Part shown: in pieces, positions 26,150 to 42,710 of the stretch | Layout of the letters: the number at the start of each line of letters is the position of its first letter | Numbering within the stretch: position 1 is the first letter of the stretch | Assembly (NCBI GenBank): GCA_001899305.1 | Contig: MKWL01000011.1 | Coordinates: 186,001-250,000, forward strand | Length of the DNA stretch: 64,000 nt | Direction: 5' to 3' | Source: Thiobacillus sp. 0-1251 | GTDB lineage: Bacteria > Pseudomonadota > Gammaproteobacteria > Burkholderiales > Thiobacillaceae | The notes under the pieces: model-generated | Told to the model about the DNA's origin: nothing | The model's database searches: none | What the model saw: only the letters and a program-made list of their open reading frames with translations | Position numbers and translations under genes: made by a program

Positions 26150-26479
26150 CTAATGCTGACTGGTTAGCGGGGAATCGAGTTGCGCCATGCCGAGAGCCGC
26201 CTGCTCGTTGGCAACGGCAGCGTACTTCATCACAGCTGCATCATCTTGTTGCTTGGCGGCTTCCTGGGCCTGGACTAGCGCACTGGCCGCTGTGGTCCAC
26301 AACGCCTTTTTGGCTGTCGCCAGATCCACGCTAGACTCCGCTCGCGCCAAGGCTTCCGTGGCCTCGGCTGACAACACCGGCTTGCGGTTGTTTTCGGCAG
26401 CGCATACGCCGTATCCAAGCCCACCTACCACAAACCCGCTCCACACCAGCCAACCGATTGCAATACGACGTGAATTCAT
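26150..26479 (-). CDS. SoxK-like SoxXA-binding protein
   Basis: A 109-aa exported protein with a signal sequence (SGFVVGGLGYGVCAAENN). The mature part is a small two-helix hairpin rich in Ala, Glu and Lys (EATEALARAESSVDLATAKKALWTTAASALVQ). SoxK/SAXB proteins have this size and pattern, associate with SoxXA and raise its activity. The gene directly follows soxA, 51 bp downstream, which is the main support. It contains no heme motif and no Cys after the signal. The assignment rests on size, pattern and position and needs an HMM search. Confidence 0.6.
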   Translation of the reverse strand: MNSRRIAIGWLVWSGFVVGGLGYGVCAAENNRKPVLSAEATEALARAESSVDLATAKKALWTTAASALVQAQEAAKQQDDAAVMKYAAVANEQAALGMAQLDSPLTSQH

Positions 26480-26530
26480 TTTTTCCTCCTGACAATTGCC
26501 CGGACGGCAGCATTCTGCCGCCCATGCTCG

Positions 26531-27367
26531 TTATTTCCTGAAAACCGATGACTTGAGCGGTAGACCATTGCTGAGATACGAATGGAAATACTCCAGATTG
26601 TTGTACTCTTCTCCACCGATCTCCATGGGCACCGCACGCACCAGCTGATTACATGCCGAGTAGCGCCGCTGCAGTGTGAACAAAGTGTAATCTCCACCTC
26701 GGAAGGCCGGCCAGTGCGTAGCCTGTCCCGGTAACATCGAGAGATATTCGGTACGCAGGATTTCACCGACATGATCTACGTGGCAGCTGGCGCAGGAAAA
26801 ATTGAGCTGGCCGCGACGCTGATAGAAGAAGCGGCGACCAGACTCGAAAGCCGCCAGGGCGCCACCGCCCTTCACCTTGATGTTCATGAGCATGCCATCC
26901 GATAAAGTCCGGGCATAAGCGGTAAGCAGGCCCATGGTATTCATGTCAGCTTGCTTGTAGGGCGCTTCGCCATTATTGGTACGACACTGGTTGAGCGCCA
27001 TTTCGAAGGTGACCACTTTTTTCATGGTTTCATCGTAGTAAGGGTAATTGCCGACTACATTCTTGCCACCTCCGGGAAAGCAATCGGCATACCGCTTGCC
27101 GTTGTTGAACTGGGTCTCCCACAACTGGCGGCCCTTGTCGATCTCGGACTCGAACGGCGGGAACGCCATCATGTTTTCATATTGCGCCTTGGCATCCGCG
27201 CTGAAGGCCAGCGCACCATGCACGTAGTCTTCGAATTTGATATCGGGGTATTTTTGCTGCACCGCCTGCACGCGGTTCAGCCGCTCCTGTTCCGGGGAGA
27301 CGGACAGCGCTTCGGTACTGAAAGCCAGCATGCCCAGACAGGACAGCATCCATGTTGCTCGTTTCAT
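26531..27367 (-). CDS. soxA: SoxA, c-type cytochrome of the SoxXA complex
   Basis: The periplasmic catalytic subunit that links a sulfur substrate to a carrier thiol. The 278-aa protein has a signal peptide (CLGMLAFSTEALS). The C-terminal heme is bound at C192-x-x-C195-H196 (SCASCH). The active-site Cys ligand is C239 in SACNQLVRAVP, the persulfide-forming cysteine in SoxA. The N-terminal domain has single Cys C96 and C128, which in monoheme SoxA form a disulfide where diheme forms carry a second CxxCH. So this is a monoheme type. It lies next to soxX without the rest of a sox operon in the window. Confidence 0.93.
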   Translation of the reverse strand: MKRATWMLSCLGMLAFSTEALSVSPEQERLNRVQAVQQKYPDIKFEDYVHGALAFSADAKAQYENMMAFPPFESEIDKGRQLWETQFNNGKRYADCFPGGGKNVVGNYPYYDETMKKVVTFEMALNQCRTNNGEAPYKQADMNTMGLLTAYARTLSDGMLMNIKVKGGGALAAFESGRRFFYQRRGQLNFSCASCHVDHVGEILRTEYLSMLPGQATHWPAFRGGDYTLFTLQRRYSACNQLVRAVPMEIGGEEYNNLEYFHSYLSNGLPLKSSVFRK

Positions 27368-27406
27368 GTTTCTTTTCTCTTTTAAAATCAGATGGCGGCC
27401 GGGCAT

Positions 27407-27781
27407 TCACAGCCCATAAACGTAATCCACGACTTTGTTGATCTCCGCGTCGGTCAAGATCCTGTTCTTGCCGAATGGCGGCATGGCCGTGTCGGGGTTG
27501 GCGCGCGTAGCGTCCCAGATCTGTGCGTACAGATCTTTCCGATTCGGGAAACGTGCAGCCATGCCTATCAGCGGCGGGGCGATGTTGGTGTTGGTCACCG
27601 CTTTAGGCTCTCCGGGCATGGCATGACATGCCAGACAATTTCCCTTGCGGTTATCGAAAGCCAGTTCCTGCCCGGTTGGTTCCGGCTTGGATGCCTCCGC
27701 GGCCTGCGCAGAGGGGATGAATGTGGCAGTGAGCAGAAGGCTCAGGCTAGCTGCCGTGACGATTGCAATTTGTTTCTCCAT
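27407..27781 (-). CDS. soxX: SoxX, monoheme c-type cytochrome
   Basis: The electron-carrying partner of SoxA. The 124-aa protein (from the chosen ATG) has a signal peptide ending at SAQAAEA. Its heme is bound at C49-x-x-C52-H53 (NCLACH), and the distal ligand is Met100 in TAMPPFGKNRILTD, the characteristic SoxX segment. An ATG eleven codons upstream would give a longer signal sequence. It is followed 39 bp later by soxA and preceded by the pentapeptide gene in the same operon. Confidence 0.93.
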   Translation of the reverse strand: MEKQIAIVTAASLSLLLTATFIPSAQAAEASKPEPTGQELAFDNRKGNCLACHAMPGEPKAVTNTNIAPPLIGMAARFPNRKDLYAQIWDATRANPDTAMPPFGKNRILTDAEINKVVDYVYGL

Positions 27782-27908
27782 CAGTCTTGCCCTGTCAGTT
27801 TTAATTAACGCCATAAAATTACGAACATTTTCTTCTCCCCCCGTACCGCGTGAGAAGAAACGGGAATAGATCCTGCCGGGGCGTAGCACCCTCGCCCGCG
27901 AAATGCGA

Positions 27909-28613
27909 CTACCGCATGGCGCCGGGCTTTTCTCCGCTTTCACTCAAGGTATGCATATCGCAGGGGCCGGGCTTCAAATCAGGACAGGTCGTCGTGACAT
28001 CGGTCGCCACCCCATTGACGTCGGCATGACTGAAATCGGCCTCATGCAAATTTGCGCCCATAAAATTCACATCGGTCAGATCGGCGAATAGGAAGCGGGA
28101 CTCGTACAAATCTGTCCGGCTCAGATTCGCACCGGTCAGGATGGCCCCTTCCATATTGGAATATTCCAGCTTGGCCTCGGAGAAATCGGCACGAGCCAGA
28201 TTGGCCATGTTTAGATTGGCGCGGCTCGATATCACTCGTTTCAGGTCGACGCCTTTCATATCCGCACCGCTCAGATTGGCCCCGCCGATGACCGCACCGC
28301 TCAGGTTGGCCTCAGTCAGTTTGGCTTGATAGAGCGTGGCGCCGATCAGATACGAACCGGCAAGATTGGCCCGGGACAGATCTGCGTGGGACAAATCAGC
28401 CCCCATGAGATTGAGACCAGCCAGATCAACCCCGGCCAGATCGCATTTCACGCAGGCATTGGTCGCAAGCAGTTGATCGCGGTTGCCCCTATGCTGCATG
28501 GGTGTTTGGGCAAAGGCCACGTGCACCATCCCCGCGCCTGCCACCAGGAATGCAATGCCTGTGATCAGGCCGGCCCGACAGAAGCGGGAATACCCGGGAT
28601 GTGTCATCCGCAT
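27909..28613 (-). CDS. Exported pentapeptide-repeat protein
   Basis: About 234 aa. An N-terminal hydrophobic signal (LITGIAFLVAGAGMVHVAFA) precedes roughly 25 tandem A(D/N)LXX repeats (for example GADLSHADLSRANLAG), which form a right-handed quadrilateral beta helix. The repeats start after a Cys pair (CVKCDL) and end before a short tail with two more Cys (TCPDLKPGPCD), which could make end-capping disulfides. An AGGAGAG site sits just before the chosen ATG. Export to the periplasm is unusual for this family, which is often cytoplasmic. It lies between the HSN-type protein and soxX. Function is unknown; scaffolding of the oxidase system is a guess. Confidence 0.85.
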   Translation of the reverse strand: MRMTHPGYSRFCRAGLITGIAFLVAGAGMVHVAFAQTPMQHRGNRDQLLATNACVKCDLAGVDLAGLNLMGADLSHADLSRANLAGSYLIGATLYQAKLTEANLSGAVIGGANLSGADMKGVDLKRVISSRANLNMANLARADFSEAKLEYSNMEGAILTGANLSRTDLYESRFLFADLTDVNFMGANLHEADFSHADVNGVATDVTTTCPDLKPGPCDMHTLSESGEKPGAMR

Positions 28614-28713
28614 GTCTGCTCTCCTCTCCGGCACTAGCCGCCGATACCTGCCAGTGCCGGTAAGCACAGACCGTCATGCAGTTGCAGATACATCATGATT
28701 CCAGAACCGCGGC

Positions 28714-29181
28714 TCAATGCTTTCCCGCGTGATCCGCCTTCATGTCGCCCAGCAGATAACGAATTTGCAAAGGCTTCTGCCCCTTCATGGTCACGGTCAG
28801 GAGGATCCTGGTACCGGCAACAAGCCTGATCCGGGAATCTTTTCCAACCAGTTCGTTGGCGCCGGCCGGATTCAATTTCACCGTCATGGCTTGCGTGCCC
28901 GCGATGAAACGCAGGCTGGCGCTCGCGCCCTGGGTCGATTGGGGCGTATCGCCATGGTCGGTGACCCATACCTGGGCCTCGCCGTCCTTCACCACCAATT
29001 CGAAGTGGTACATCTCCGCCATGCGTAGCAAACCGCCGTGGTCGCCCTTGATGGTGGCCAGATATTCGTTACTGTGCGCCAGTGCCGCAGTCGGCAGGCC
29101 CAACGCAGATAACAGCCCCAGGCAGGCAATCCAGCGCCTTGCCGAGGCAAATGTATTCACGATTGTTCTTTGAATATTCAT
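28714..29181 (-). CDS. Small periplasmic beta-rich protein, metal-locus family
   Basis: 155 aa with a signal peptide ending at PTAALAHSNEYL. The mature part is a short beta-sandwich-like sequence with His at its very start, an HGG motif (KGDHGGLLRMAEMYHFELV), the VTDHGDT loop, and a C-terminal KADHAGKH tail. I have seen similar unnamed proteins beside copper and heavy-metal efflux genes. A copper-binding or chaperone role, analogous to CopC, is plausible. It directly follows the beta-propeller enzyme gene. No enzymatic motif is seen. Confidence 0.7.
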   Translation of the reverse strand: MNIQRTIVNTFASARRWIACLGLLSALGLPTAALAHSNEYLATIKGDHGGLLRMAEMYHFELVVKDGEAQVWVTDHGDTPQSTQGASASLRFIAGTQAMTVKLNPAGANELVGKDSRIRLVAGTRILLTVTMKGQKPLQIRYLLGDMKADHAGKH

Positions 29182-29265
29182 GCTCGTCTTTCAGTTCTTT
29201 GATAATCTTTTCATCGGATACCCCGTCGACGGCGATGCCGCCGACGGAGAGAACGAAACGTTCCG

Positions 29266-30732
29266 TTACACCGAAGTACTGCGCGAGAACTTCATGCCTT
29301 CCCAGCTTTCCGGTACCACGACGTGGTCGTGCATGCCACCGGGAACGGCAATACGGGCTTCGATCTTGTCGGTCTCGACGTTAAGAATCACCAAGCCGGA
29401 CTGTCCGCCCTGGTTGCCGCTGTACACCGTAGTCATGTATTTGCCGTCAACCGAGCAGTCGCAGGTGTGGGGATCCGGGCCGGTATCCCACTTCGCGGTC
29501 ACCTTCCAGGTTTTGGTATCCACCTTGCAGATGTAGCCATTGTTCGGCTTGCGCGCCCACATGGTGAAGTAGGCAAAACGCGAATCCGGTACGTTGCCCA
29601 TATGCAGCGGCAGATATTTGTCGCCGAACCCTTCGACGAAGGCTTCCTTCTTCCATTTGAGCGGATTCTCATCGGTCGAACGGTAGATCGCGATGTTGTT
29701 CTGCAGCACGTTGTTACATGCACAGAAGTATTCGCCGCTCGTAATGAAGCCAGCCTCGTGCAAAGGCGTAAGCACAGACGGCACGGAGAAGGTCCAGGTG
29801 AAACCCTGTTGCCGGGTCAGCGGGAAATTGTCAGGCGCGCCCTTGGCGGTGGAAAGCAGCGCAACCACTTCCCAGGTGCGCGTATCGACGATCGCGCAGC
29901 AACCGAGGCGGCGAATCAGGATCGCCCCAAACGGCAGGGTCGGATGCCAGGTAAAGGCATCCACGAAGACCGCAGTCGGGTCGGCCGGCATCAACTCTTC
30001 GCCCAGCATCGCCTCGTGGGTCGTCTTCATGCCTTTGCGGCCCACGTAGTCGAACTTGCCGGTGGTGGCATCGGGGAAGATATGGCTGATGTGAAGCTGT
30101 CGCTTGACGGGATCGTAATCGGCACGGAAGGCCTTGACGATTTTCGGGTTGTCATCGATGGTGGTGATCAGCACCATGTCCTTCTGGCCATCCGCAAACG
30201 CGACATACTTGTTGGCGTTTTCGCCCACACCGATGGACACGTGCACCCCCAGCGACATACCCGTGGTCACGCCGATGTCGTTGACCACTTCGATGTGGTT
30301 TTGCTTGCCGCTACCGTCGTAGCGCATCTTGAACATCTTGAAATCGCCACGATCGCGCCATTCGGGGGAGTTCTCGTTGACATAAGGCGTCCCGGGCGGC
30401 TGCATGGTCTGGTAAAAGTCGAATCCCTTGTAAGGATCGGCCGAGGGCATGGCCGCGATGTGGTGCGGGATGGGCATGTTGACGCCCGCCAGGCCGTAGT
30501 TGTACCAAGCCAGGGTTTCCGGTACGGCGAGGTCAAGCGCCTGCACGTAGCCGCCGTACTTGCTCGGCAGCAGCACGACGTTACGATCGAATTTCTTGAA
30601 AAAATCGGCCTGCGCTTCGTTGAGCGGATCGTGGCGAGCCGCCAAGGCGCTCCCCGAACCCAAAACACCTGCTGCCCCGGCCATGCCGGCAGCGAGCGAA
30701 CCTTGTATGAACTGCCTTCTGGAAATACTCAT
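29266..30732 (-). CDS. Tat-exported beta-propeller copper oxidoreductase, thiocyanate dehydrogenase/NosZ-like
   Basis: 488 aa. The twin-arginine signal SRRQFIQGSLAAGMAGAAG and the AARHDP site imply export of a folded, metal-loaded protein. The rest has repeated beta blades like the NosZ propeller but no C-terminal CuA domain, so it is not a nitrous oxide reductase. Candidate copper ligands and catalytic residues recur at loop positions: K58, H90/H91, H164, H263, H325, H377, H422 and H468. From memory, thiocyanate dehydrogenase uses Lys103, His135, His381, His437, His482 and His528; the spacings 45 and 46 between its last three match H377, H422 and H468 exactly, and Lys-to-His 32 matches K58-H90. 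The predicted reaction is periplasmic oxidation of thiocyanate to cyanate and sulfur, but this is an inference. AAGGAG precedes the ATG. Confidence 0.68.
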   Translation of the reverse strand: MSISRRQFIQGSLAAGMAGAAGVLGSGSALAARHDPLNEAQADFFKKFDRNVVLLPSKYGGYVQALDLAVPETLAWYNYGLAGVNMPIPHHIAAMPSADPYKGFDFYQTMQPPGTPYVNENSPEWRDRGDFKMFKMRYDGSGKQNHIEVVNDIGVTTGMSLGVHVSIGVGENANKYVAFADGQKDMVLITTIDDNPKIVKAFRADYDPVKRQLHISHIFPDATTGKFDYVGRKGMKTTHEAMLGEELMPADPTAVFVDAFTWHPTLPFGAILIRRLGCCAIVDTRTWEVVALLSTAKGAPDNFPLTRQQGFTWTFSVPSVLTPLHEAGFITSGEYFCACNNVLQNNIAIYRSTDENPLKWKKEAFVEGFGDKYLPLHMGNVPDSRFAYFTMWARKPNNGYICKVDTKTWKVTAKWDTGPDPHTCDCSVDGKYMTTVYSGNQGGQSGLVILNVETDKIEARIAVPGGMHDHVVVPESWEGMKFSRSTSV

Positions 30733-30783
30733 TAATTTAACTCCTTGCGTTGTATTGCTTTATGCAGACGCCCTAGCGTCGAT

Positions 30784-31437
30784 TCAGATGTCGCCTTTCT
30801 TCCAGTCCTGCGGGCCGACGAAGACCTTTTCGATCGTGCCGTTGGCCGACAACAGGAAGCTGGTCGGCAAGCCGCGAATCCCCAGACGCGTAGAAACGCC
30901 TTTAGGGCTCAACACATCGTTGGGCGCCACATACATATCCCGCTTCAAGTTATGCTCCTTCTTGATCAGGCGCATGGTTGCCGCCGTGGAAGGAATCGCC
31001 TGCGTCGGGCCGCCCATCAGGTGCGTGCCCATCGTGTCCGCATTGATAAAGACGACGTTCGCGCCGCGTCCATATTTGTCCACGAATACCTCGGTCTTTT
31101 TCAGCTGTTCAACCGAAACCGGCACCGCAGAGATGAAAAACACCACCAGCGTCCGTTTGCCTGCCACCAGACTGCCGAGATCGGCCTTTTTTGCATTGGA
31201 GTCATAAATCTCGATATCAGTCGGCATTTTTGTGCCGACCGCCATCGGTTTGATGAACACTTCACCCCCCACCTGCTCGGCAGATGGGAAGGTTCCATCC
31301 TTACCATCCGCCAACACCACGCTAACGGGTATTGCAAGCAGCCCCAACGCGAAAAGAGCTGGCCCCGCCGTGCAAAGTGCAGAAACGACGCGTCGCTTCC
31401 CCAGCCCACCTGATACCGTTGTTGCCTTAGATTTCAT
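30784..31437 (-). CDS. Exported thioredoxin-fold protein lacking redox cysteines
   Basis: 217 aa with a membrane or signal segment (residues 20-43). The mature part follows a TlpA/AhpC/SCO-like thioredoxin fold: a strand LVVFFIS (97-103), the normal active-site position, and the cis-Pro segment GLPTSFLL (cis-Pro 191). Where CxxC should stand there is AVPVSV, and the only Cys in the protein is in the signal region. It therefore cannot do thiol-disulfide exchange. It might be a structural chaperone or a copper-site assembly factor that uses His/Met. It is the first gene of the operon, with AGGAGA before the ATG. Confidence 0.75.
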   Translation of the reverse strand: MKSKATTVSGGLGKRRVVSALCTAGPALFALGLLAIPVSVVLADGKDGTFPSAEQVGGEVFIKPMAVGTKMPTDIEIYDSNAKKADLGSLVAGKRTLVVFFISAVPVSVEQLKKTEVFVDKYGRGANVVFINADTMGTHLMGGPTQAIPSTAATMRLIKKEHNLKRDMYVAPNDVLSPKGVSTRLGIRGLPTSFLLSANGTIEKVFVGPQDWKKGDI

Positions 31438-31593: not shown

Positions 31594-31609
31594 AGCACTT
31601 CCCATGCCA
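31594..31609 (-). promoter_or_regulatory. Putative sigma54 (-24/-12) promoter of the propeller/SoxXA operon
   Basis: Read on the minus strand it is TGGCATGGGAAGTGCT, with GG at -24 and GC at -12 at the required 12-bp offset. Mismatches to TGGCACG-N4-TTGCW are at two positions only. Transcription would start near 31582, about 145 bp before the first gene. Confidence 0.65.
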
Positions 31610-31990: not shown

Positions 31991-32605
31991 TTACATGCGC
32001 ATATCGTTGTCCTGCTCGATTACACCACAGGCCACACGCGCACCGGAATTGCCGGCCGGATCGGAAAAATCGTCTTCTTTGGCGTGAATGACGATCGCGC
32101 GATTGACAATGGAATTGAGGCCGATCAACGCCAGACTCACACCCGGCACGTCCACGCTCACGTTGGCGACGCCGTTCCGATCCGCTTCAATATTGCCGAG
32201 GTCGCCCAGATGATGTGCCTCGCCGGAGGGCGCGCCGTGGACCCCGCCAGAAGGCGCGAAATGACCGCCTGCACTCATTCCATCCGGTGAATCACAATTG
32301 CCGTTCACATGAATATGGAAACCGTGTTTGCCCGGCGTCAGGCCCGCCACGCTTCCTTTGATCAGCACGTTACTGTTGTCATGTTGAACCAGATGCAGCG
32401 TGCCATTCACTTGACTGCCTGAAATGGCCACCAGTTCTGCCGTCGCATTCGAGCCTCCATGATTGTGATCCATGGGAGACGCCACATGATGGCCATGGTG
32501 GGAATGCTCTGCCGCACCAGCCTGCCCTATCGCCCCAAGCAGCGCGGCAACGGCGATCCGACGCATATAACGGGTTTCAAGTCTCCCGTTCCATCTGTCC
32601 TTCAT
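31991..32605 (-). CDS. sodC: Cu/Zn superoxide dismutase
   Basis: Periplasmic dismutation of superoxide. About 204 aa with a signal peptide (IAVAALLGAIGQAGAAEH) and then a His-rich stretch (HSHHGHHVASPMDHNHGG) that may capture metal, as in some bacterial SodC proteins. Metal ligands are in GFHIHVNGNCDS, GGHFAPSG, and AIVIHAKEDD. The structural Cys pair is in GNCDS and RVACGVIEQ. A second ATG downstream (RRIAVAAL) is also possible; an AAGGAG site favours the upstream ATG. It lies between the DUF302 gene and the propeller operon and is likely part of the copper-related response. Confidence 0.95.
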   Translation of the reverse strand: MKDRWNGRLETRYMRRIAVAALLGAIGQAGAAEHSHHGHHVASPMDHNHGGSNATAELVAISGSQVNGTLHLVQHDNSNVLIKGSVAGLTPGKHGFHIHVNGNCDSPDGMSAGGHFAPSGGVHGAPSGEAHHLGDLGNIEADRNGVANVSVDVPGVSLALIGLNSIVNRAIVIHAKEDDFSDPAGNSGARVACGVIEQDNDMRM

Positions 32606-32739
32606 CAAATACTCCTTGTCATCGAATTGAGTGTATCCAGGGCACCTGTTCGTGCACTGCAGGAGGCGCAGGCCATTTCCGTTCCCGCCCTCAGCAGCTT
32701 GCTACGTATGGATTTGAACGATGCGCCGAGCGGGTTCGT

Positions 32740-32767: not shown

Positions 32768-33289
32768 TCAGAACCCACCACTGGCCAAGCTATCCAGAAT
32801 GGCGCGCAAGTCATCATCAAACTGCTTGAGGGTTGCCCTGCCTTCGTCTGTCAGATTCTTGTCGTTGGCAAGCAAGCTCAAAATATGGGCCGGACGCTGC
32901 ATCATGACCGTGGTCTTGCCGTCATGCTCGATGAGCGCCAACCGGCATGGCGCAAACATCTCGAAGTTGGGCACATGATGGGTGACGGTGTAGGCCTTGG
33001 TCAGATTGCAGAACTCGATGAGCTGAAGCGGCGGCGCATCGATCCCGCGCCCCTGCAGGCCTTCCTGCACATTGAGCACGTTGATGATGGCGTAATTCCT
33101 GGCTTCGAGTTGCGAGATCAGCATATCGCGCACGGCCGCAATTTTGTCTGCCACGGTCACTTCGAACTTGAGCTCGGTTGCCACTACATGGGGTTCATCG
33201 GCCATGGCCGATGTCGCTGGAAAGATCGTCAGCAAGCCCAGTAAAAATAGCGTGCGACTGTTGCGTTTAACGCGGGAAAAAAACTTCAT
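32768..33289 (-). CDS. Exported DUF302 protein
   Basis: 174 aa starting at the ATG before KFFSRVKRNS, with GGAGAG upstream. A signal peptide (LFLLGLLTIFPATSAMA) is followed by a DUF302 domain (about residues 40-145): the N-terminal strand-helix motif TVADKIAAVRDML and the segments FCNLTKAYTVTH and FAPCRLALIEHDGKTTV. Two Cys in the mature part are conserved-looking. DUF302 proteins are small periplasmic or cytoplasmic proteins of unknown function common in sulfur and metal metabolism loci. It has its own sigma54 promoter and neighbours the regulator gene. Confidence 0.85.
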   Translation of the reverse strand: MKFFSRVKRNSRTLFLLGLLTIFPATSAMADEPHVVATELKFEVTVADKIAAVRDMLISQLEARNYAIINVLNVQEGLQGRGIDAPPLQLIEFCNLTKAYTVTHHVPNFEMFAPCRLALIEHDGKTTVMMQRPAHILSLLANDKNLTDEGRATLKQFDDDLRAILDSLASGGF

Positions 33290-33346
33290 CACCTTCTCTC
33301 CTGTTTGTTTCAAACAACAGGCCGTGAATCGGCCCTGCCGAACTTG

Positions 33347-33362
33347 AGCAAACAGCATGCCA
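33347..33362 (-). promoter_or_regulatory. Putative sigma54 promoter of the DUF302 gene
   Basis: The minus strand reads TGGCATGCTGTTTGCT, which matches the -24/-12 consensus except at one position, with correct GG-GC spacing. It sits in the gap between the response regulator end and the DUF302 start, giving a leader of about 45 nt. sodC may be transcribed from it too. Confidence 0.75.
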
Positions 33363-33376: not shown

Positions 33377-34768
33377 CTATTCGCGCCGGCTTGGCGTGAA
33401 CTGGAGATTGAATTCGCGCATCTTGCGCCACAGGGTGGTACGGCCGATACCCAATTCACGCGCAGCCTCGCCGATATGCCTGGCACGCCGCAAGGCAGCC
33501 TCGATCAACATGCGCTCGGTCTTGGCAAGGCTGCCCCCCTCTCCTTGCGGCAATGGGGCGGGGACATCGGCCTCTGATATGTTGCCCAGATGCTGCAACA
33601 GATCTTCTGGCAGGGCGTTGATATCGATCACCCCCTGCTCGTCAGCGAAAACCACCATTTGTTCCACGAAGTTTTCCAACTGGCGGATATTCCCCGGGTA
33701 CGGATAAGCCTGTACACAGGCCAGGGCGCGCGGCGTCAGACTGAGTCCGCTGCGCTTGTACTTGGCACTGTAGACTTCGAGAAAACGCGTCAGCAACCGC
33801 TTGAGGTCCTCGCCTCGCTCCCTGAGCGGCGGCAGATGCAGCCGGATACCATTGAGGCGGAAATACAGATCGGAACGGAAATGTCCACGTTCCATGAGGC
33901 TATCGAGCACCTGATTGGTGGCAGAAATCACCCGGATATCCACTTGTTTGCTCTTGTTCGATCCCACCCGGCGGATCTGCCGCTCCTGCAGTACGCTCAA
34001 TAGCTTGGCCTGCATCGCGGGCGACAGGGTATCCACCTCGTCCAGGAAAATGGTGCCGCCATCCGCTTCCTCGAACAGACCGGCACGAGAATCGGTCGCG
34101 CCGGTGAAGCTGCCGCGCACGTGGCCAAACAGTTCGCTCTCCAGAAGCTGCTCCGGTAGGCTGGCGCAATTGATGCTGACAAAGGCATGCTCGCTGCGCG
34201 CGCTTTTCTCGTGGATGAGTCGGGCAACACGAGTCTTTCCGGTGCCGGTCTCGCCGGTAATGAGCACGCTGATGTCGGTGGCTGCCAGCCGTTCCGCCTT
34301 GATCAGGGTCGCGCGCATCTGCGGAGTATCGGCCACGATGTCGTCTGCCTCGCGCGACTCCGCCGTGGGAGGGCTCCGCATTGCGGTGGCGTAATTGCGC
34401 AATGCCTGGCTGGCATGGATTTTTTCCAGAATATCGTGTTCGCTGAACGGCTTGGTGAGGTAATCAAATGCGCCCAGGCGCATCGCATCGACTGCCGATT
34501 CGATGCTGCCATAGGCCGTGATCAGGATCACCGGCAGGTGGGGCTTGATCTGCTTGATCTCGCGCAGCAGATCAATTCCGGACATGTCATCCATACGCAA
34601 ATCGGTAATCACCAGATCGTATTCAGCCTGGCTCAAGATCGCCAACGCCTGGCTGCCGCTTTCCGCCTCGCTGGTGTCGAAGCCGGCCCCCAGCAGCATG
34701 AGCGACAGGCTACGGCGCAGGCTTTTCTGGTCGTCCACCAACAGGATATGAAGAGGTTTGCTGCTCAT
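33377..34768 (-). CDS. Sigma54-dependent NtrC-family response regulator
   Basis: 463 aa in three parts. The receiver (5-120) has the phosphoacceptor Asp in DLVITDLRMDDMSG. The AAA+ domain (about 143-375) has Walker A TGETGTGKT, the sigma54-contacting loop as GSFTGA, a known variant of GAFTGA, and Walker B GGTIFLDEVD. The C-terminal Fis HTH is EAARELGIGRTTLWRKMRE. It is the enhancer-binding activator. Its start overlaps the end of the sensor gene by 4 bp, so it is their pair. Matching -24/-12 promoters lie nearby. I infer it activates the RND efflux, DUF302 and propeller operons. Confidence 0.95.
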   Translation of the reverse strand: MSSKPLHILLVDDQKSLRRSLSLMLLGAGFDTSEAESGSQALAILSQAEYDLVITDLRMDDMSGIDLLREIKQIKPHLPVILITAYGSIESAVDAMRLGAFDYLTKPFSEHDILEKIHASQALRNYATAMRSPPTAESREADDIVADTPQMRATLIKAERLAATDISVLITGETGTGKTRVARLIHEKSARSEHAFVSINCASLPEQLLESELFGHVRGSFTGATDSRAGLFEEADGGTIFLDEVDTLSPAMQAKLLSVLQERQIRRVGSNKSKQVDIRVISATNQVLDSLMERGHFRSDLYFRLNGIRLHLPPLRERGEDLKRLLTRFLEVYSAKYKRSGLSLTPRALACVQAYPYPGNIRQLENFVEQMVVFADEQGVIDINALPEDLLQHLGNISEADVPAPLPQGEGGSLAKTERMLIEAALRRARHIGEAARELGIGRTTLWRKMREFNLQFTPSRRE

Positions 34769-37422
34769 GCCATCGCTATCGTACGGTCAAGGGTTGCGTC
34801 GACCGGCTCGGGCAAGGGTACGCGCACATAAAACCGGGTACCATGCCCCATCTGGCTTGCAATGCGGATACGACCGCCCCACTCCTGCACGAAGCGCTGC
34901 ACGATGGCGAGCCCAAGCCCGGCACCATGTGAGCGCTGGGTATAAAACGGCTCGAAAATCAGCTTGCGCTCCAAGGGGGGGATGCCCTTGCCAGTATCCG
35001 CCACGACCAGCAGAAACCAGCCGGGATAGACGCGTACCGTGGCATACACATGGCCCCGGCCATGAATGGCCTGCGACGCATTGAGCAGGAGGTTCCACAG
35101 AACGACTTCCAGACCATCCGCATCGAACAGATGGGACATGGCATTGCCCGAGATACCCGCTTCCACTTCGATCATTTGTCCCTGTTGCTGGACATGACGC
35201 TCCAGTGCTGCACACACCTTGTAAACCAGCGCTTCCAGTACCACCGGCTTGTTTGCCATCACACGCGGCTTGCCAAACATGAGGAAGTCGCGCGTCAGAT
35301 TATCCAGCCGCGCCACCTCGTCCTGGATGATTTCCAAGGCATCGCGGCTTCGGCCCTCGTTACTGCGTTCCGCCTTCAACACCGCCAGGCAATTGGTAAT
35401 GGCCGACAGCGGATTGCGTACCTCATGCGCCACCGAGGCAGCCATCTGGCCCAGCGCTGCCAGGCGTTCCGCGCGGATTTTGTTTGCCTCGGACAGTTTA
35501 AGTTGCTGGTTGATTTCGGACAATTGCTGGTAGCTATGGGCATTGTTGATTGCAATACGGACCTGGCCGGCAAGTAGTTCCCCCTTGGCCAGGGTAGCCT
35601 CGCTGAATTGCACCCGCTCCTTGCGTATCAACACCATGGCGCCGATCAGGCGTTCTTCGTCCAGTAGGGGAAACAGCGCCATCGCCCCCCAATGGCAACT
35701 CAATGGCTGTTCTGAAACCCATAACGCCTGACTGTCCGGCCACAGCATGGCACGTGGGCGGAAGTGGCCGTCGATATTATTCAGGAGCCGTGCGCATGAA
35801 TGGCCGTCACGGCACCAGGCCTCCAGTTCAGCGGTACAAGCCTTGTCGCTGTCGGCAAACCATCGGGCCGCCAGAGTGAAGCGCCCGGGTTCCTTATCGC
35901 TGGGAAGCCAGACCAGCGCCCCTTCACTGTCCAGCAGGTCGGCGATTTCGCTGCACACCGATTCAAGCACCCGCTTGAGGTTCAGGGTTGAGGTCATCAT
36001 GGCCGATACTCGTAGCAAAGCGGCCCGGAATTCGTTGGCGTCAAGCCAACGATGGTAAAGCAGTGCATTGTTGACGATCGTGCCAATCTCCGCCGCCAAC
36101 GCCTGCAACTGGCCCATGCGCTGGCGCAAGTGCTCACGATCTTCCATGAGCAAGCGAAGGTGACCGATCTCCTGGCCGCTCGCGGTGAGCGACAGGCAAA
36201 CCGACTGATCGACCGTGCCGGAAGAGCATTCGTAATAGCTTCCCCCCGACTCCCTCACCAACTGACAGCTTTGCCCAAAACAGGTGGCGTTCGACGCCTT
36301 GGCCCGGATGGGCCAGTGCGATCCCAGTTGGGGCATATGTCGCTCGAACTCGTCGATTTCATCCGCCGGGATGCTCAGGATCAACTCGCCACAGGGGATA
36401 CCCAGCAGTTGGTTGACCGCACTGGACACCACATCGAGCGCATTGTTGAGATCGGGCGAGGTCATCGCCTCGCGCGCCATGCGATTGCGTATCCTGAGTT
36501 CCTGATTGACGTTTCTGATCCTGCGTTGGGTGCGATGCAGCCGCCGGTTGGCGCGCATCAGAACATGGCGCGAGCGCTCAATGGTATTGAGTGCCAGCAG
36601 GAAACCGACCGACACCGTGACCATGACGCCCAGATAGAACATCATTTTGACCCCGTGCCACCCCCACCAGATGATGTCCCATAGTTTGGAGAAGTTGAAC
36701 AAATAGGCACTCTGCGCAAACACCAACAGCAGACTGGCGATCACCAGTGCAAGGCTTTTCCGATACTTCCGGTAATAGCCGTAAAAAGCAACGGCATCGA
36801 GCGCATAAAGAAAGCTGGCCAGGTAATGCACGCTATGCGTGGTCGGCAGAAAACTCAGAGAATTGGGGTAGGTGCCTGACATCAGGTTCGGAATGAATAT
36901 CTGATACAAGACTGCCACCATCAATACGACCAGCCCGCCCACTCCCACTGTGAGCATATCGCTGTGAGTAGGCCAGCGTTTCCGATCTGAGAAAATATGG
37001 GCCACGATGCCGGCCAGGATCAGCCCGCTTCCAGACAGGGAAGAGACGGTATGGTAGGCGACGAAATGGTGCAGTTCCGGGCCCGGATTGGACCAGGCAT
37101 GCAGGATGTCCATGACCCCCATGGACAGGAAAGCCATTCCGAAAAATGCCCCACCATAGCTCTTTTGTCTCGCGCTCACGGCCAGAATCATGCCGGCGAT
37201 CATCAGTGCCACAAAACCGCAGAATGACTCGATCAGCATGTGGCTCTTGATCTCGACAAACTGCTGCGCAAGCAGATGAGGAGAAAGATTTCCAAACAGC
37301 AGGATCGGGAGTAAAAGCAGGAACACCACCCACAGCATCACGCCGGTCTCGAGCAGGTTGCCCGCCCGCTCCGATTCAGGCAGCCCGATTCCACGTTCCA
37401 TTCGAAAAAATTTCACCTGCAT
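34765..37422 (-). CDS. Membrane sensor histidine kinase with seven-helix sensor and two GAF-type domains
   Basis: 885 aa. Residues 25-290 contain about seven hydrophobic helices, a MASE-like sensor with HAWSNPGPELHHF in a loop. Two GAF-like modules follow (about 315-455 and 475-625). The first carries an unusual Cys set in NATCFGQSCQLV and YYECSSG. The HisKA phosphoacceptor is in SVAHEVRNPLSAITN near residue 665, and the ATPase domain shows NLLLNASQAI, DTGKGIPP and GAGLGLAI. It is cotranscribed with the response regulator and probably senses a metal or sulfur ligand in or near the membrane. Confidence 0.92.
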   Translation of the reverse strand: MQVKFFRMERGIGLPESERAGNLLETGVMLWVVFLLLLPILLFGNLSPHLLAQQFVEIKSHMLIESFCGFVALMIAGMILAVSARQKSYGGAFFGMAFLSMGVMDILHAWSNPGPELHHFVAYHTVSSLSGSGLILAGIVAHIFSDRKRWPTHSDMLTVGVGGLVVLMVAVLYQIFIPNLMSGTYPNSLSFLPTTHSVHYLASFLYALDAVAFYGYYRKYRKSLALVIASLLLVFAQSAYLFNFSKLWDIIWWGWHGVKMMFYLGVMVTVSVGFLLALNTIERSRHVLMRANRRLHRTQRRIRNVNQELRIRNRMAREAMTSPDLNNALDVVSSAVNQLLGIPCGELILSIPADEIDEFERHMPQLGSHWPIRAKASNATCFGQSCQLVRESGGSYYECSSGTVDQSVCLSLTASGQEIGHLRLLMEDREHLRQRMGQLQALAAEIGTIVNNALLYHRWLDANEFRAALLRVSAMMTSTLNLKRVLESVCSEIADLLDSEGALVWLPSDKEPGRFTLAARWFADSDKACTAELEAWCRDGHSCARLLNNIDGHFRPRAMLWPDSQALWVSEQPLSCHWGAMALFPLLDEERLIGAMVLIRKERVQFSEATLAKGELLAGQVRIAINNAHSYQQLSEINQQLKLSEANKIRAERLAALGQMAASVAHEVRNPLSAITNCLAVLKAERSNEGRSRDALEIIQDEVARLDNLTRDFLMFGKPRVMANKPVVLEALVYKVCAALERHVQQQGQMIEVEAGISGNAMSHLFDADGLEVVLWNLLLNASQAIHGRGHVYATVRVYPGWFLLVVADTGKGIPPLERKLIFEPFYTQRSHGAGLGLAIVQRFVQEWGGRIRIASQMGHGTRFYVRVPLPEPVDATLDRTIAMA

Positions 37423-37504: not shown

Positions 37505-40500
37505 TCACAATCCGCTCGGCACCAGCCAGCCCTTGCGGCGGCTGGCCATCCAATGGAAGAGCGTCGGGATCACCAGCAGATTGAGCAGGGTCGAGCTCAA
37601 CATGCCACCCAGCAAAACAATGGCCAGCGGCCGTTGCAATTCCTTTCCAGTGGGGTCGCCCAGAATCAGTGGGATCACAGCCAGTGCGGCTGTAAATGCC
37701 GTCATCAAAATAGGGACCAGGCGGTCCACCGACCCTTTCAAGGCGATTTCTCCGGCATTGAGATCTGGGCGCATGCGAAGCAGGGATTGATAGCGGGATA
37801 TCAGTAGCAGGCTATTGCGGGTGGCCACACCGAAGAGGGCCACCATGCCGATCAGCGAGGATACGTTGAGGGTCTCTCCGGCCAGTGCGAGTGCGAATAC
37901 ACCGCCGATCAGGGCCAAAGGCAAATTGAGCATGACCAGCGATACCAACGACCAGCTCCGGAACGCCTGATACATGACGACCGACATCAACAGTATTGCG
38001 GCGGCGGACGTCACCAGCAGAGTGCGGGATGCACGTTGCTGACCCTCGTAGTCGCCGCCAAACTCAATACTGTAGCCAGGCGGCAACGTAAGCTTGTCGC
38101 GAATGCGGTCCTGGGCTTCCCGTACCACCCCGTCAAGATCGCGTCCTTCGGTGTTCCATTGCACCACGGCGCGGCGTGCGGCCCCATCGCGGTTGATCAT
38201 GTAAGGCTCCTGCACCGATTTCAGCTCGGCCACTTCACGCAATGGAATGACTGCACCGCCAGGTGACATCAGCGGCATTTCGCCCAGAGTCTGGATATCG
38301 CTGCGGGCTGCTTCGTTCACACGCATGAAAATATCGAAGGTACGGTCCTGTTCCAGAACTTTGGATACCGCCACCCCATTGAACGCGGCACTCACCTGGG
38401 TAACGACCGCACCCGGGGTGAATCCATAGGCGGCTGCGACGGCCCGATTGACCCGGATATCGACACCCGGTACCAAAACCATCGGCTCCATCTGCAAATC
38501 CACGACGCCCGTCACGCCCTTCACCGCTTGATAGACTTCCTGTTGCTTCTGCTGCAGCACCTCGAAATCCTGGCCATAGATCTTCACTGCAACCTGGGCA
38601 CGCACCCCGGACAGGATCTCCGACATACGGTGGGTGATGAACTGGGACACATTGACCGACATGCCTGGAATCTGCGCCAGCTTGTCACGGATGCGCTGCA
38701 TCACCTCGGGCACGTTGCGGGTACCCGGCTTGAGCGCAATATCGAACTCGCTGAAATTCACTGGCTGGGCATCCTCGTCCAGACGCGAGCGTCCGGCACG
38801 CTGGGCAAGGCTGGCAATCTCCGGCATATCGCCGATCAATTGCTCGATCTTGCGGCCCACACGCAAATTTTCCTCCAGTGACGTACCCGGCATCAGCGTG
38901 GTCGCGATCACCAGGTTTCCCTCGTGGAAGGCGGGAATAAAGGATCGGCCAAGGGACGGAATCACCAGGATCGCCGCGACCAGGATCAATGCGGACATCG
39001 CGGCCGTCGGCAAGGGCCGATCCAGACAGGGTTTCAATACCTTCTCATAACGGCTGAGCAGCATGTCGGAAATGGGGCTCAAGCCATAGCTCTGATATTG
39101 CGGCCGCCGCCCCATGAGGTAGTAACTCAACACCGGCACGAGCGTGATGGCAACCACAAGAGAGCTGGCGATGGCCGCCAAGTAGGAGATCGCCAGCGGT
39201 CGGAAGATACGGCCTTCGATGCCCTGGAGGAAAAAGATTGGGATGAAAGCCACGACAATCACGAAGGTGGCGAACACCACCGAATTGCGGATCTCACGCG
39301 AACCTTCGTAAACAATCTCCAGTGCAGGCAACGGCTCCGCCGCCTGCTTGTTTTCACGCAGGCGGCGCAGAATATTCTCGACGTCGATGATGGCATCGTC
39401 CACGACTTCGCCAATGGCGAACACCAGCCCCCCCAGAGTCAGGGCGTTGATTCCGATGCCAAAGAGCCACAGCACCAGCACACCGGCCATCAGGGAAACG
39501 GGAATGGCAATCAGGCTGATCGCAGTGGGACGCCAACGGAACAGGAACAGCAGCAGCACCAACGCCACGATAAGGGAGGCGTCGAGCAATGCGCCTCGCA
39601 GATTGGCGATGGCGGTCTCGATGAAACTTGCCTGGCGGAATACATCGGGAATCAACTGAATATCCGCGGGCAGGCTGCGCGCCAGATTGGCCAGTGCCTT
39701 CTCGACGTTGTGTGTGGTTTCCAGCGTGTCCGCGCCCCACAGCTTGGAGACGGTTCCGATCACGGCCGGGCCACCGAAGATCTGGCCATCGCCTCGTTTG
39801 ACCTCGCTCCCAAAGCGCACTTCCCCCACATCCTCGACCCGGATCGGCTGTCCTTCGCGCATGGCAATCAGTGTCTCCGCCACATCACGGAGGCTCTGCA
39901 CCCGGCCATTGACACGAATGAAATATTCCTCCTCGCTGGTGGGATAGACAAACCCTCCGGGCGCCACCAGATTGGCGCGACGCAGGGCCTGCATCACGTC
40001 TTCGCTGGATACGTCGTACTTGCGCATGCGAATGGGATCAAGCATCACCTGGTACTGCTTCACCCCGCCACCCACGGCCACCACGGACGCAACCCCCGGT
40101 TGGGCCAGCACCCTGTTGCGAATATCCCAGTCCGCCAGCGTGCGCAACTCATGTTCGCGGTTCTCGCCAGACCAGTCGACCAAGGCGAACTTGAGCAGCC
40201 AGCTCACTGCTGACGTGACCGGCATCAATTGGGGCGCTTGGGCCGACTCGGGCAGTTGGCCCTGCACCAGTTGCAAACGTTCCTGAATGATCTGGCGGGC
40301 ACGGTAAATATCGACACCCCATTTGAATGTGATCGTGATGCGCGACAGGCCAACCGACGAGTTGGATCGGATTTGATCGATATACGGGGCTCCCTGCAGG
40401 ACGATCTCGATCGGCCGGGTGACCAGCCCTTCAACGTCTTTCGTCGAGTATCCCGGCACTTCGGTCTGGATCTGCACCTGCGGCGGCGCAAATTCCGGGA

Positions 40501-40615
40501 ATACATCTACCGCCATGTGCAGTGCGGCAAAGATCGACGCGCCGGCCATCAGCACATAAAGCAACACCACGGCCAGCCGGTTCTTGAGGGACCACTTGAT
40601 TGCCCAATCAAACAT
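37505..40615 (-). CDS. HME-RND (CusA/CzcA-like) efflux pump
   Basis: The inner-membrane, proton-driven pump subunit of a heavy-metal efflux complex; 1036 aa, a normal length. Twelve helices and two large periplasmic loops. The HME signature sits in the fourth helix region as [14 protein letters not shown], with acidic residues for proton relay. The N-terminal [14 protein letters not shown] and loop [17 protein letters not shown] are typical. The metal is probably Cu+ or Ag+, but Zn/Co/Cd or another substrate cannot be excluded from the sequence. It is downstream of two adaptor genes and upstream of the sensor gene. Confidence 0.92.
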
Positions 40616-40630: not shown

Positions 40631-41791
40631 TCAGTGATGGTGGTCGCTGTCTGCTACGCTGGCATGATTGCCGGACATGCGGTACACCCCTTCCAGAATC
40701 ATCTTGCCGTCGACCACCACCCGGTCGCGCGGGTCGACACCCGCCACCTGGAGCCAACTCTCCGTTTCACTCAATACCGCCACCGGCTTGCGCAGATAGC
40801 GTCCGGGTGCAGCTTGCACGTACACGACCGGATCCAGCTTCTGACCCAGAACCGATTGGCGCGGCACCCAAGTTCCCACCTGTCCATCCAGGACAAGCAC
40901 AAGCTCCACCGTCTGGCCGGTGGCCAGCCCAGGCACGCTGCGCCCCAGATCCAACAGGAAACGGGCACGCTGCGTCCGGGGATCGATACCCGGCACCACC
41001 TCGGCTATCGGACGCTGCATCTTCACGCCGCCAGGCAAGGCGACCTCGACCTTGATGCCAGGCCGAAGCAGGGTCTCCTGGCCGGCATAGACATAGCCTT
41101 CCACCCACAATGACTGCTTGCTGGATACCATGCGCGCCACCGACTTTCCTATCACCACGAACTGCTTCATGGTGCGGTCGCCTGCATTGACCAGCGATCC
41201 GGGCTGCACGAACAGGTCGGTAACGAATCCGTCAGTGGGCGCCTCCAGGATGAGGTGTTCCACCACCGTTCCCTTGTCGATCAACGCGGCGATCTGCGGA
41301 TCGGTCATCCCCCACCAGCGCAGGTTTTCCTTGGCGTCCTTGAGGTAATTGGGCAGCCGCCCCTCCTCGCGAAGAACCTGAAGCCGCTCCTCGTTTTGCA
41401 GGAATTGCAGATACCCCTTCTGGGTCGTGATGAACTCGGGATTGAAAATGGACACCATCGGCTGCCCCTTTCTCACGCTGTCGCCGGGGCGCACGAAGAC
41501 CTGAACAATCTGGCCGCTGACGACAGTATTGACATCCAGAACTGCCTCGGCATTGGGCACGACCTGGCCGTAAGTCTGCAGCCGCTTGGCAGGGGCATCG
41601 GCCCTGACCGCTGCGAGCGTGATAACGTCTCCAATGTCACGCACGCCCGAGGGCAGCCTGACCTCGCTGGCTTCACGGCTGCGTTCAATGATCTGTTCGA
41701 ATACCCCAGAGTCGCCGTGCGCATGAACCAGGGCGGGCATACTCAGCGCAAGCAAAACAATGGGAAGCGCCAATACCACCTTAATGAACAT
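40631..41791 (-). CDS. RND periplasmic adaptor protein with His-rich C-terminus
   Basis: 386 aa. A signal peptide (LPIVLLALSMPALVHAHGD) precedes a barrel-sandwich lipoyl-like domain (VSGQIVQVFVRPGDSVRKGQPMVS), a helical hairpin, a beta barrel and a membrane-proximal domain, typical of CusB. The C-terminus ends in DSDHHH, which could bind metal. It overlaps the preceding adaptor by 11 bp and precedes the RND pump by 15 bp. Bridges pump and outer-membrane channel and may pass metal to the pump. Confidence 0.9.
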   Translation of the reverse strand: MFIKVVLALPIVLLALSMPALVHAHGDSGVFEQIIERSREASEVRLPSGVRDIGDVITLAAVRADAPAKRLQTYGQVVPNAEAVLDVNTVVSGQIVQVFVRPGDSVRKGQPMVSIFNPEFITTQKGYLQFLQNEERLQVLREEGRLPNYLKDAKENLRWWGMTDPQIAALIDKGTVVEHLILEAPTDGFVTDLFVQPGSLVNAGDRTMKQFVVIGKSVARMVSSKQSLWVEGYVYAGQETLLRPGIKVEVALPGGVKMQRPIAEVVPGIDPRTQRARFLLDLGRSVPGLATGQTVELVLVLDGQVGTWVPRQSVLGQKLDPVVYVQAAPGRYLRKPVAVLSETESWLQVAGVDPRDRVVVDGKMILEGVYRMSGNHASVADSDHHH

Positions 41792-42650
41792 GCGCGTCCC
41801 CCGAAAAACTGACCGTAGCCACCCCCCCATTCAGCAGCCCCAGATGCTCAGGCTCTCTGAAAACCTGTAACCGCACCCACTGCCTCTGATTGACCGGGTT
41901 CACAAAGGCATACACACGCTGCACCTTCGCGGCCACCGCTATCCGCCCCTTGGCTGGATCGTTCACGTAGACCGTCGCTGACTGTCCCGGCTTGACCGCC
42001 GAAGCCTCACTTACCGGCAAACTCGCTTCCACCACGATTGCGCCAGGCTGAGCGATCGTGGCGATCGTGGTGCCACTGGTCGCGTATTGGCCGCCCTGTG
42101 TTCCGGCATTGAGGATCTGGTTATTGACCACATTCAGGCTATACAGGTAGCCTGAGATCGGGGCCTTGATCTTGATCAGCTTGAGCGGCTGGCGCGTTGC
42201 TTCCAGACGTTTGATATCCTCCTCCGACATACCGCGCCAGAGCAGATTCATGCGCGCATCGACCATCTTCTCTTCGCTGGTCATGGAAAATGCCCGGACA
42301 GCATCCATGTTGGCAAACAAGCCCAGATAGGTAGCCTGCACTGTCTCCAGTTCGGCGCTTTCTATCTCGCCCAGCACCTCGCCCCGGCTCACTCTTTTCC
42401 CGACGTACACGTTGCGGAGATTGGCCATGCGAGCGTTGATCTTGATTACCACACTCACCATATGACGGGGATCGATCGATACCTTGGCCGGATAAAGCTT
42501 CGCCGGCTCCGCCTCCGTCTCTTCATCGTCATGATGATGGGCTGCGGCAGGCGCGCTAAACATGGACGAATCGGAATGCGCCCATGCCTGCTGTTGCAGA
42601 CCAGTCAATAGACAAAACAACGCAGTGCAACCAATGATGGCGGGCAGCAT
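41781..42650 (-). CDS. Second, short RND adaptor (HlyD/CusB-like)
   Basis: 289 aa, shorter than normal adaptors. After a signal (LFCLLTGLQQQAWAHS) there is a His- and Asp-rich strip (HHHDDEETEAE), then LYPAKVSIDPRHMVSVVIKINARM and a barrel-sandwich core (GKRVSRGEVLGEIESAELE). It lacks a long membrane-proximal C-terminal domain but keeps the lipoyl and barrel parts. It leads the operon, right behind a sigma54 promoter. Two different adaptors for one pump is unusual. It may deliver metal or work as a heteromer with the next gene product. Confidence 0.85.
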   Translation of the reverse strand: MLPAIIGCTALFCLLTGLQQQAWAHSDSSMFSAPAAAHHHDDEETEAEPAKLYPAKVSIDPRHMVSVVIKINARMANLRNVYVGKRVSRGEVLGEIESAELETVQATYLGLFANMDAVRAFSMTSEEKMVDARMNLLWRGMSEEDIKRLEATRQPLKLIKIKAPISGYLYSLNVVNNQILNAGTQGGQYATSGTTIATIAQPGAIVVEASLPVSEASAVKPGQSATVYVNDPAKGRIAVAAKVQRVYAFVNPVNQRQWVRLQVFREPEHLGLLNGGVATVSFSGDAHVH

Positions 42651-42694: not shown

Positions 42695-42710
42695 AGCAAT
42701 GACTGTGCCA
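42695..42710 (-). promoter_or_regulatory. Sigma54 (-24/-12) promoter of the metal-efflux operon
   Basis: The minus strand TGGCACAGTCATTGCT differs from TGGCACG-N4-TTGCW at one base and keeps the correct GG-GC spacing. Transcription would begin about 33 bp before the first adaptor gene. The sigma54 activator is encoded in the same run of genes. Confidence 0.82.

Follow-up and report, generated by a model that had tools for sequence, protein, structure and literature searches.

The window analysed here is a stretch of 64,000 nucleotides from Thiobacillus sp. 0-1251 (GenBank assembly GCA_001899305.1, contig MKWL01000011.1, positions 186,001 to 250,000; G000:C11:186001-250000 in our genome collection), and its subject is a run of seven minus-strand genes at 26150-31437 that combines a thiocyanate dehydrogenase (TcDH) with SoxX and SoxA. 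In the order of transcription, the run encodes TrxL, an exported redoxin-fold protein (30784..31437); TcDH, a Tat-exported copper propeller (29266..30732); P155, a small exported protein of 155 residues (28714..29181); an exported pentapeptide-repeat protein (27909..28667, its true start probably near 28613); SoxX, a mono-heme cytochrome c with the motif CLACH (27407..27943); SoxA, mono-heme with the motif CASCH (26531..27406); and a small exported protein resembling SAXB/SoxK (26150..26479). The listed starts of SoxX and SoxA are probably too long, with likelier starts at 27814 or 27781 for SoxX and at 27367 for SoxA. An earlier note, made from the DNA sequence, had described seven minus-strand genes in one run, and all seven open reading frames (ORFs) in the window ORF list are indeed open at that place, with gaps of 51, 84, 46, -35, 0, and 51 bases; the cluster does not end with them, however, but continues upstream on the same strand to 42650.

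That the propeller is a thiocyanate dehydrogenase with a complete trinuclear copper site is strongly supported by sequence comparison and modelling. Nine TcDH sequences in the Protein Data Bank (PDB) match residues 42–487 in a phmmer search at E 2.7e-64 to 5.9e-75, and apart from TcDH nothing falls below E 0.2. All 13 active-site residues published for Thioalkalivibrio paradoxus TcDH (PMC6504805, legend of Fig. 4) are identical in the window protein (K58, H90, H91, Q111, H164, E240, D258, H325, H377, H422, H468, D469, and R484), the overall identity being 35.5% over 437 aligned pairs. They are also kept in every row of a 21-row alignment, which holds the window protein and 20 loci at ≥58% identity (without L010, L012, L014, L016, L019, L034, L035, and L041). 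A chance ligand pattern is ruled out, since the 13 positions were listed beforehand and the naive probability of matching all of them at 35.5% identity is 1.4e-6, a figure that excludes coincidence only, active sites being more conserved than average. The spacings of 45 and 46 residues that the earlier note gave for the last ligands of TcDH hold up, with H377, H422, and H468 aligned to H437, H482, and H528 of T. paradoxus TcDH, and the Tat signal it had read scores above the Pfam and NCBIfam cut-offs.

An AlphaFold2 model of the propeller (mean pLDDT 77) gave TcDH structures at ranks 1–20 in a Foldseek search of the PDB (TM 0.79–0.86), and NirN and cytochrome cd1 propellers appear from rank 21 onward, far behind, within the best 50 matches. 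NosZ is absent from the phmmer PDB matches and from the best 50 Foldseek matches listed, and these searches, headed by TcDH throughout, rule out NosZ or another propeller family. The comparison that the earlier note had proposed, of the copper ligands and the catalytic lysine and glutamate with those of solved TcDH, thereby came out in favour of the assignment at the level of sequence (13/13), with TcDH structures as the best PDB matches of the model; neither a better match to another propeller family nor a missing ligand position turned up, the note having named a match to another family or missing ligand positions as grounds for abandoning the idea. The TcDH type seen here, referred to below as neutrophilic, also has conserved cysteines, C339 in 21/21, C424 in 20/21, and C426 in 19/21 rows; C424 and C426 sit just after the copper ligand H422, and T. 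paradoxus TcDH has no cysteine at the positions matching any of the three. At one locus, that of Paracoccus sp. S-4012 (L034, 7836-9456), TcDH is split over three overlapping frame segments, as with a frameshift or a sequencing fault.

SoxX and SoxA, which the earlier note had named in this run, are genuine, scoring 89.1 bits against NCBIfam TIGR04485 (cut-off 61) and 204.2 bits against TIGR04484 (cut-off 110), and in Thiobacillus they are tied to the TcDH locus. Among the seven proteins of the run, heme motifs occur in these two only. The term SoxK-like for the last gene can be retained as a resemblance and nothing more, because the match to the SAXB/SoxK model NF052674 is weak (23.4 bits, E 6e-5) and falls short of the cut-off of 95; five of six orthologues scanned show the same weak match (19.8–27 bits), and one has none. 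Each of the 11 TcDH-linked SoxA proteins described below carries one CxxCH motif and the cysteine of the RRY-x-A-C motif, and none contains a stop. The aligned counterpart of window SoxA Cys252 in R. sulfidophilum SoxA is residue 222, which we take to be the catalytic heme-ligand cysteine. The statement that the pair occurs without other sox genes applies to the TcDH locus, but not to the genome, where an ordinary soxX-soxY-soxZ-soxA-soxB operon is present on contig C20 and provides the only SoxY match found; the linked SoxXA therefore need not work without a carrier. Window SoxA and SoxX are 55% and 46% identical, respectively, to the copies in that operon, and a SAXB-like match is absent from the 14-kb stretch around it.

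In a SoxA tree of 60 distinct rows (after removal of 12 identical rows, of matches shorter than 165 columns, and of rows containing stops), the 11 TcDH-linked rows form one clade with support of 100/99. Its neighbour is a clade of 19 other Thiobacillus rows that includes the soxXYZAB copy of the same genome (98/99), and the fork joining the two reaches 88/90 only. In the SoxX tree, a clade of 12 (90/86) unites the linked rows with the window row, and ordinary Thiobacillus SoxX joins L107 and L020 first. Judged from these trees, the linked SoxXA pair is a distinct lineage, whose nearest relative differs between the SoxA and SoxX trees. Sixteen SoxA alignment positions are fixed differently in the linked and ordinary groups (≥90% in both), and two of them, 251 and 253, flank Cys252: A251 of the linked proteins is glycine in 19/19 ordinary rows, and N253, present in 10/11 linked rows, is phenylalanine in 18/19 ordinary rows and asparagine in 1/31 other rows. 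The linked SoxA cores are 78–97% identical to that of the window protein.

The occurrence of this arrangement was compared across 27 TcDH loci from the genome collection. Loci of alpha-, beta-, and gammaproteobacteria have the order TrxL-TcDH-P155-pentapeptide in common, but L029-L031 showed no P155 and no pentapeptide gene, and at L020 and L034 the latter was not seen. Behind this core, all 11 Thiobacillus/Hydrogenophilales loci that extend far enough downstream carry soxX-soxA-SAXB (L009, L011-L019, and L032, with L011 and L015 representing one metagenome-assembled genome, MAG), a count to which L010 and L035 do not contribute, as they end just behind or inside TcDH. The L009 locus is that of the type strain Thiobacillus thioparus DSM 505, the TcDH of which is 99% identical to the window protein and surrounded by a matching gene order; on these grounds the genome of the window is placed close to that strain. 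Counted by genome, SoxA lies a few kilobases away on the TcDH contig in 12 of the 13 TcDH-bearing Thiobacillus genomes; the 13th (G477) has SoxA on another contig. G477, the record of L010, is labelled Rhizobium yet placed in the genus of the window. Its TcDH-type SoxA is present, and no SoxY, SoxB, or second, ordinary SoxA was found, through an assembly gap or a real loss; as it appears to be a MAG, it is not relied on here to show that SoxXA can act without a carrier. TcDH itself is rare, with matches in 2/398 genomes of a phylum sample at E 1e-10 and in 13/117 genomes of the family, all of one genus. Plasmid-borne spread was set aside, because PLSDB gave only two Methylocella tundrae records at 33% identity.

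Other sox genes were located near TcDH at three of the 14 non-Thiobacillus loci (L020, L025, and L033) in a search with Thiobacillus queries, which distant sox genes can escape. At L020, a betaproteobacterial MAG (176-4366), TrxL-TcDH-P155 is followed by soxX, soxY of the GGCGG type, and soxZ up to the contig end, all three above cut-off. Because L020 SoxX falls outside the linked clade, among ordinary rows (97/77), this looks like a separate recruitment and a second type of Sox-TcDH linkage. In Rhodoplanes serenus (L025, 4289-6452), a divergent soxX-Y-Z-A cluster precedes TrxL, with SoxA and SoxZ above cut-off, SoxY just under it (121/125 bits), and SoxX as a 53-residue fragment under cut-off. 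In Pseudaminobacter (L033), behind the cus genes, the contig breaks off in the start of a soxX, a fragment that scores under cut-off. Within Thiobacillus, L011 has the start of soxY about 2.3 kb behind the SAXB-like gene, again at a contig end.

As for the proteins flanking TcDH, TrxL matches Pfam Redoxin at 28.3 bits (cut-off 26.6) and adjoins TcDH in alpha, beta, and gamma loci. The earlier note had called it a cysteine-less thioredoxin-fold protein, which is correct for the mature part but not for the leader, where the single cysteine (Cys22) resides. A TrxL homologue has been proposed as an acceptor of zero-valent sulfur (PMC6504805). In P155, an Ala-His pair marks the likely end of the signal peptide in 20 of 20 covering rows of a 21-row alignment, with cleavage judged by eye, and His36 is the likely first residue of the mature protein; this histidine is not kept in all more distant relatives. 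Residues G14, G15, H24, E26, G32, W37, D40, and P70 (mature numbering) are invariant in the 21 rows. The P155 model (pLDDT 87) gave H. pylori CrdA as the first Foldseek match (E 4e-3, TM 0.52–0.58), with PcoC and CopC also listed; for these proteins E is 4e-3 or worse and TM 0.38–0.58, and every match in the list has E above 0.001. In print, HpCrdA counts as a copper protein of the CopC kind that lacks His (PMC9182242), and P155 may be a CopC/CrdA-like periplasmic copper protein. Sequence searches of the window protein gave no Pfam family, no credible PDB match (designed-propeller matches were discarded as spurious short repeats), and a single PHROGs match at E 0.07, to a protein of unknown function. 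P155 is ruled out as a TcDH-specific marker, since its family is wider, with profile matches in 37/398 phylum genomes vs 2/398 for TcDH. The pentapeptide protein, recognized by Pfam, has four conserved cysteines (72, 75, 228, and 236) at both ends of the repeat, and an exported protein of this kind stands beside TcDH in three proteobacterial classes.

The same-strand genes upstream of TrxL encode the Cu/Zn superoxide dismutase SodC (31991..32608, Pfam 142.6 bits), a DUF302 protein (32768..33358, Pfam), an NtrC-type sigma-54 response regulator (33377..34768, Pfam), a large histidine kinase (34765..37422, 41% identical to its L021 homologue), a CusA-type RND pump (37505..40615), and CusB2-type (40631..41830) and CusB1-type (41781..42650) adaptors, all on the minus strand. 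The kinase and the three cus-type ORFs fit the published order cusB1-cusB2-cusA-kinase-regulator (PMC6504805) and are named from that locus and from inspection of the sequence, the family scan having covered the other ORFs. On the far side of the run, a small exported protein, an FTR1-like permease (identified by eye), and a 242-residue protein on the plus strand at 24124-26002 face the SAXB-like gene; among the compared loci, only L009 and L032 have them.

An exact sigma-54 -24/-12 match, TGGCAC-N5-TTGCT, lies 44 bases before the cusB1 start (42695..42710, minus strand), and a weak site with two mismatches, TGGCATGGGAAGTGCT, lies 156 bases before TrxL (31594..31609, minus strand); a third, with one mismatch, is found at the DUF302 gene (33347-33362). 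Random 560-base pieces of the window contain such a site in 1.35% of cases at ≤1 mismatch and in 13% at ≤2, so that the weight of the weak TrxL site rests on related loci. Sites with at most one mismatch upstream of TrxL are present at 8 of 10 Thiobacillus loci examined and at L020, L026, and L027; the site has two mismatches in L009, L010, and the window, likewise two in L034, and eight other loci have none. Window-wide enrichment was not seen (3 sites at ≤1 mismatch, 2.96 expected) and was set aside, which leaves the exact cusB1 site and the recurrence upstream of TrxL; the latter is support for sigma-54 control, not proof, because the loci are related and not independent.

The core of the locus corresponds to a TcDH type described for Thiohalobacter and Guyparkeria (Tsallagov 2019, PMC6504805), where in Thiohalobacter thiocyanaticus HRh1 and Guyparkeria SCN-R1 cusB1, cusB2, cusA, a histidine kinase, a sigma-54 regulator, and a Cys-less thioredoxin-like gene accompany TcDH, the thioredoxin-like gene preceding it. 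We found no description of the genes behind TcDH in the available text, where the T. thioparus contig NZ_KB891333.1 is mentioned only in connection with its cusB genes; the alignment of that paper also included unnamed homologues from other genomes. In Thiohalobacter L021, TcDH is 79% identical to the window protein and is followed by P155 and pentapeptide genes, but not by soxX-soxA-SAXB. The TcDH of Afipia, described as "thiocyanate desulfurase" (PMC8061750), is the same kind of protein; that of another strain (L027) is 76% identical to the window protein, and its operon lacks SoxXA. The TcDH of T. paradoxus and Tv. thiocyanoxidans (PDB 5F75) shares the fold, the active site, Tat export, a sigma-54 regulator, and nearby copper genes (PMC5328954, PMC5744179), but is only about 32–35% identical, and its loci have copCD, tatA, fccAB, and ABC transporters in place of Cus, TrxL, and SoxXA. 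The best PDB match is TcDH of Pelomicrobium methylotrophicum, class Hydrogenophilia (PDB 8Q9X and others, about 34% identity). TcDH outside haloalkaliphiles is thus not new, being in print (PMC6504805, PMC6934394, PMC8061750) and represented by the Pelomicrobium structures; the distinctive part of the present locus is the soxX-soxA-SAXB-like cassette, not membership in the TcDH family. The ordinary SoxXA of soxXYZAB shares the heme motif and the active cysteine with the linked copy, but forms a separate clade, and the linked copy has no soxYZB beside it. No account of a Thiobacillus TcDH, or of a TcDH operon with SoxXA, was found in the accessible text of the literature searched.

The hydrolase (COS) route of thiocyanate breakdown has Thiobacillus thioparus as its textbook example. 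Thiocyanate hydrolase, scnABC, likewise acts on thiocyanate, but is an unrelated cobalt enzyme. The genome of the window also contains a hydrolase gamma gene (G000:C1:59333-59908, L123; 385.9 bits, cut-off 291), preceded by nitrile-hydratase-beta-like ORFs and about 2.5 kb from a cyanase gene. Matches to the Pfam family of the gamma subunit are present in 4 of the 13 TcDH-bearing Thiobacillus genomes (G459, G477, G502, and the window's, to which the specific model was applied as well) and were not detected in the remaining nine, two of which are under 90% complete; the Pfam family also occurs in 3 of 7 hand-picked genomes without TcDH. Cyanase was found in 9 of the 13. The Thiobacillus MAGs 65-29, 65-1059, and 65-1402 (G460, G456, and G457, i.e., loci L017, L019, and L018), which bear SCN-pilot names, have TcDH, and a hydrolase gamma gene was not detected in them, so they may be unrecognized thiocyanate degraders. 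In T. thioparus DSM 505 (G502), which has a complete TcDH operon, scnABC has been reported (PMC5328954); the available text of its genome paper mentions growth on thiocyanate once and reports soxXYZAB as the sox set (PMC5248467). A cyanate route for thiocyanate-using thiobacilli had been put forward much earlier from cyanase activity (Youatt 1954, cited in PMC6504805).

Based on these observations, we propose that the locus is the Thiobacillus form of a neutrophilic TcDH operon, whose own SoxXA accepts the TcDH product, be it electrons, sulfur, or both, a reading to which we assign a probability of about 0.58. TcDH, exported in the folded state via the Tat pathway, would convert SCN- and H2O to cyanate, zero-valent sulfur, and two electrons, as can be expected from its homology to solved relatives and its complete active site. 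P155, the Cus-type proteins, and the kinase/NtrC pair could supply or sense copper, under sigma-54 control. Because the two electrons need an acceptor and only SoxX and SoxA have heme motifs, the SoxXA of the operon is the proposed acceptor, taking electrons via its hemes and perhaps sulfur on Cys252 of SoxA; the sulfur transfer, which the earlier note had suggested, is the speculative half of this proposal. From there, sulfur may pass to the ordinary SoxYZ from elsewhere in the genome, and TrxL and the SAXB-like protein may serve as docking or carrier partners. From what is known of cyanate breakdown, the cyanate can be handled by the cyanase of the genome. The link to SoxXA draws on the cassette in 11/11 Thiobacillus loci, the single SoxA clade, the altered residues beside Cys252, and the sox genes at L020, L025, and L033. 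For comparison, cytochrome c552 is an in vitro acceptor for T. paradoxus TcDH (PMC9456337). In Thiohalobacter FOKN1, which judging by its genus presumably has the same TcDH type as the window, TcDH is abundant, the purified enzyme was inactive, the acceptor is given as unknown, and an abundance of SoxYZA was left unexplained (PMC6934394).

Several observations weigh against this proposal. Sox clusters are common in sulfur oxidizers, no soxYZ is present among the ORFs of the locus, the SoxA and SoxX trees place different relatives next to the linked clade, and A251 is also present in 4/31 other SoxA rows. None of the 14 non-Thiobacillus loci showed the cassette; with L031 cut off about 117 bases past TcDH and L020 past soxZ, 12 of them are informative, and there TcDH has to function with no SoxXA of its own in the operon. 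In FOKN1, the sox genes are located elsewhere (PMC6934394), and expression or biochemical data for a Thiobacillus TcDH were not found in the accessible literature searched. Finally, SoxX and SoxA pass the ordinary thiosulfate-SoxXA models, so the paralogue may have a thiosulfate role. The linked SoxXA could accordingly be a co-regulated extra thiosulfate enzyme that never touches TcDH: released sulfur and sulfite would give thiosulfate, which is loaded onto ordinary SoxYZ. The soxYZB genes encoded elsewhere in the genome agree with this, as does the abundance of SoxYZA in FOKN1 on thiocyanate, where thiosulfate formation was suggested by the authors; the same authors did not see free thiosulfate, according to the available text. 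With the paralogue in a separate clade and changed next to its active cysteine, and with G477 keeping the linked SoxA where SoxY, SoxB, and a second SoxA were not found (in a MAG, and so maybe through a gap), we regard this explanation as rather unlikely, though it is the most probable of the rivals.

A TcDH paralogue with another substrate, e.g., a different sulfane compound, appears very improbable. The identity of only about 32–35% to characterized TcDH would allow it, purified TcDH from FOKN1, which belongs to the same genus as L021, showed no oxidation of thiocyanate, and some of the hosts are not known as thiocyanate users. All 13 active-site residues are nevertheless present in the window protein and in 21/21 rows, TcDH is abundant in FOKN1 while it degrades thiocyanate and accumulates cyanate, a protein of TcDH mass is reported to be overproduced on thiocyanate in HRh1, and 9 of the 27 loci belong to records whose names refer to an SCN reactor or to thiocyanate. 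Least probable among the rival explanations is a passenger role for SoxXA-SAXB, in which a cassette arose by duplication and came to lie behind the TcDH operon with no functional connection to it. Its restriction to one genus would be in keeping with such an event, but the cassette is intact in 11/11 linked loci with the SoxA cores at 78–97% identity, no gap between neighbouring ORFs of the run exceeds 84 bases, and other sox genes occur near TcDH at three more loci. Within the proposal of SoxXA as acceptor, a direct coupling, in which sulfur passes from the copper site, perhaps via C424/C426, to Cys252 of SoxA and on to a SoxYZ persulfide, is put forward tentatively and is in our view doubtful.

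Such a direct coupling, if true, would let sulfur enter the Sox pathway without thiosulfate being made, and would help to account for the apparent inactivity of a neutrophilic TcDH purified alone. The presence of both scnABC and a TcDH operon in T. thioparus DSM 505 turns the old question of the route into a two-gene knockout test. Thiocyanate is a pollutant, from which TcDH strips the sulfur, and because no hydrolase gamma gene was detected in 9 of the 13 Thiobacillus genomes with TcDH, the three SCN-pilot MAGs among them, surveys based on the hydrolase may miss thiocyanate degraders. With the private SoxXA, neutrophilic TcDH also gains a definite candidate acceptor.

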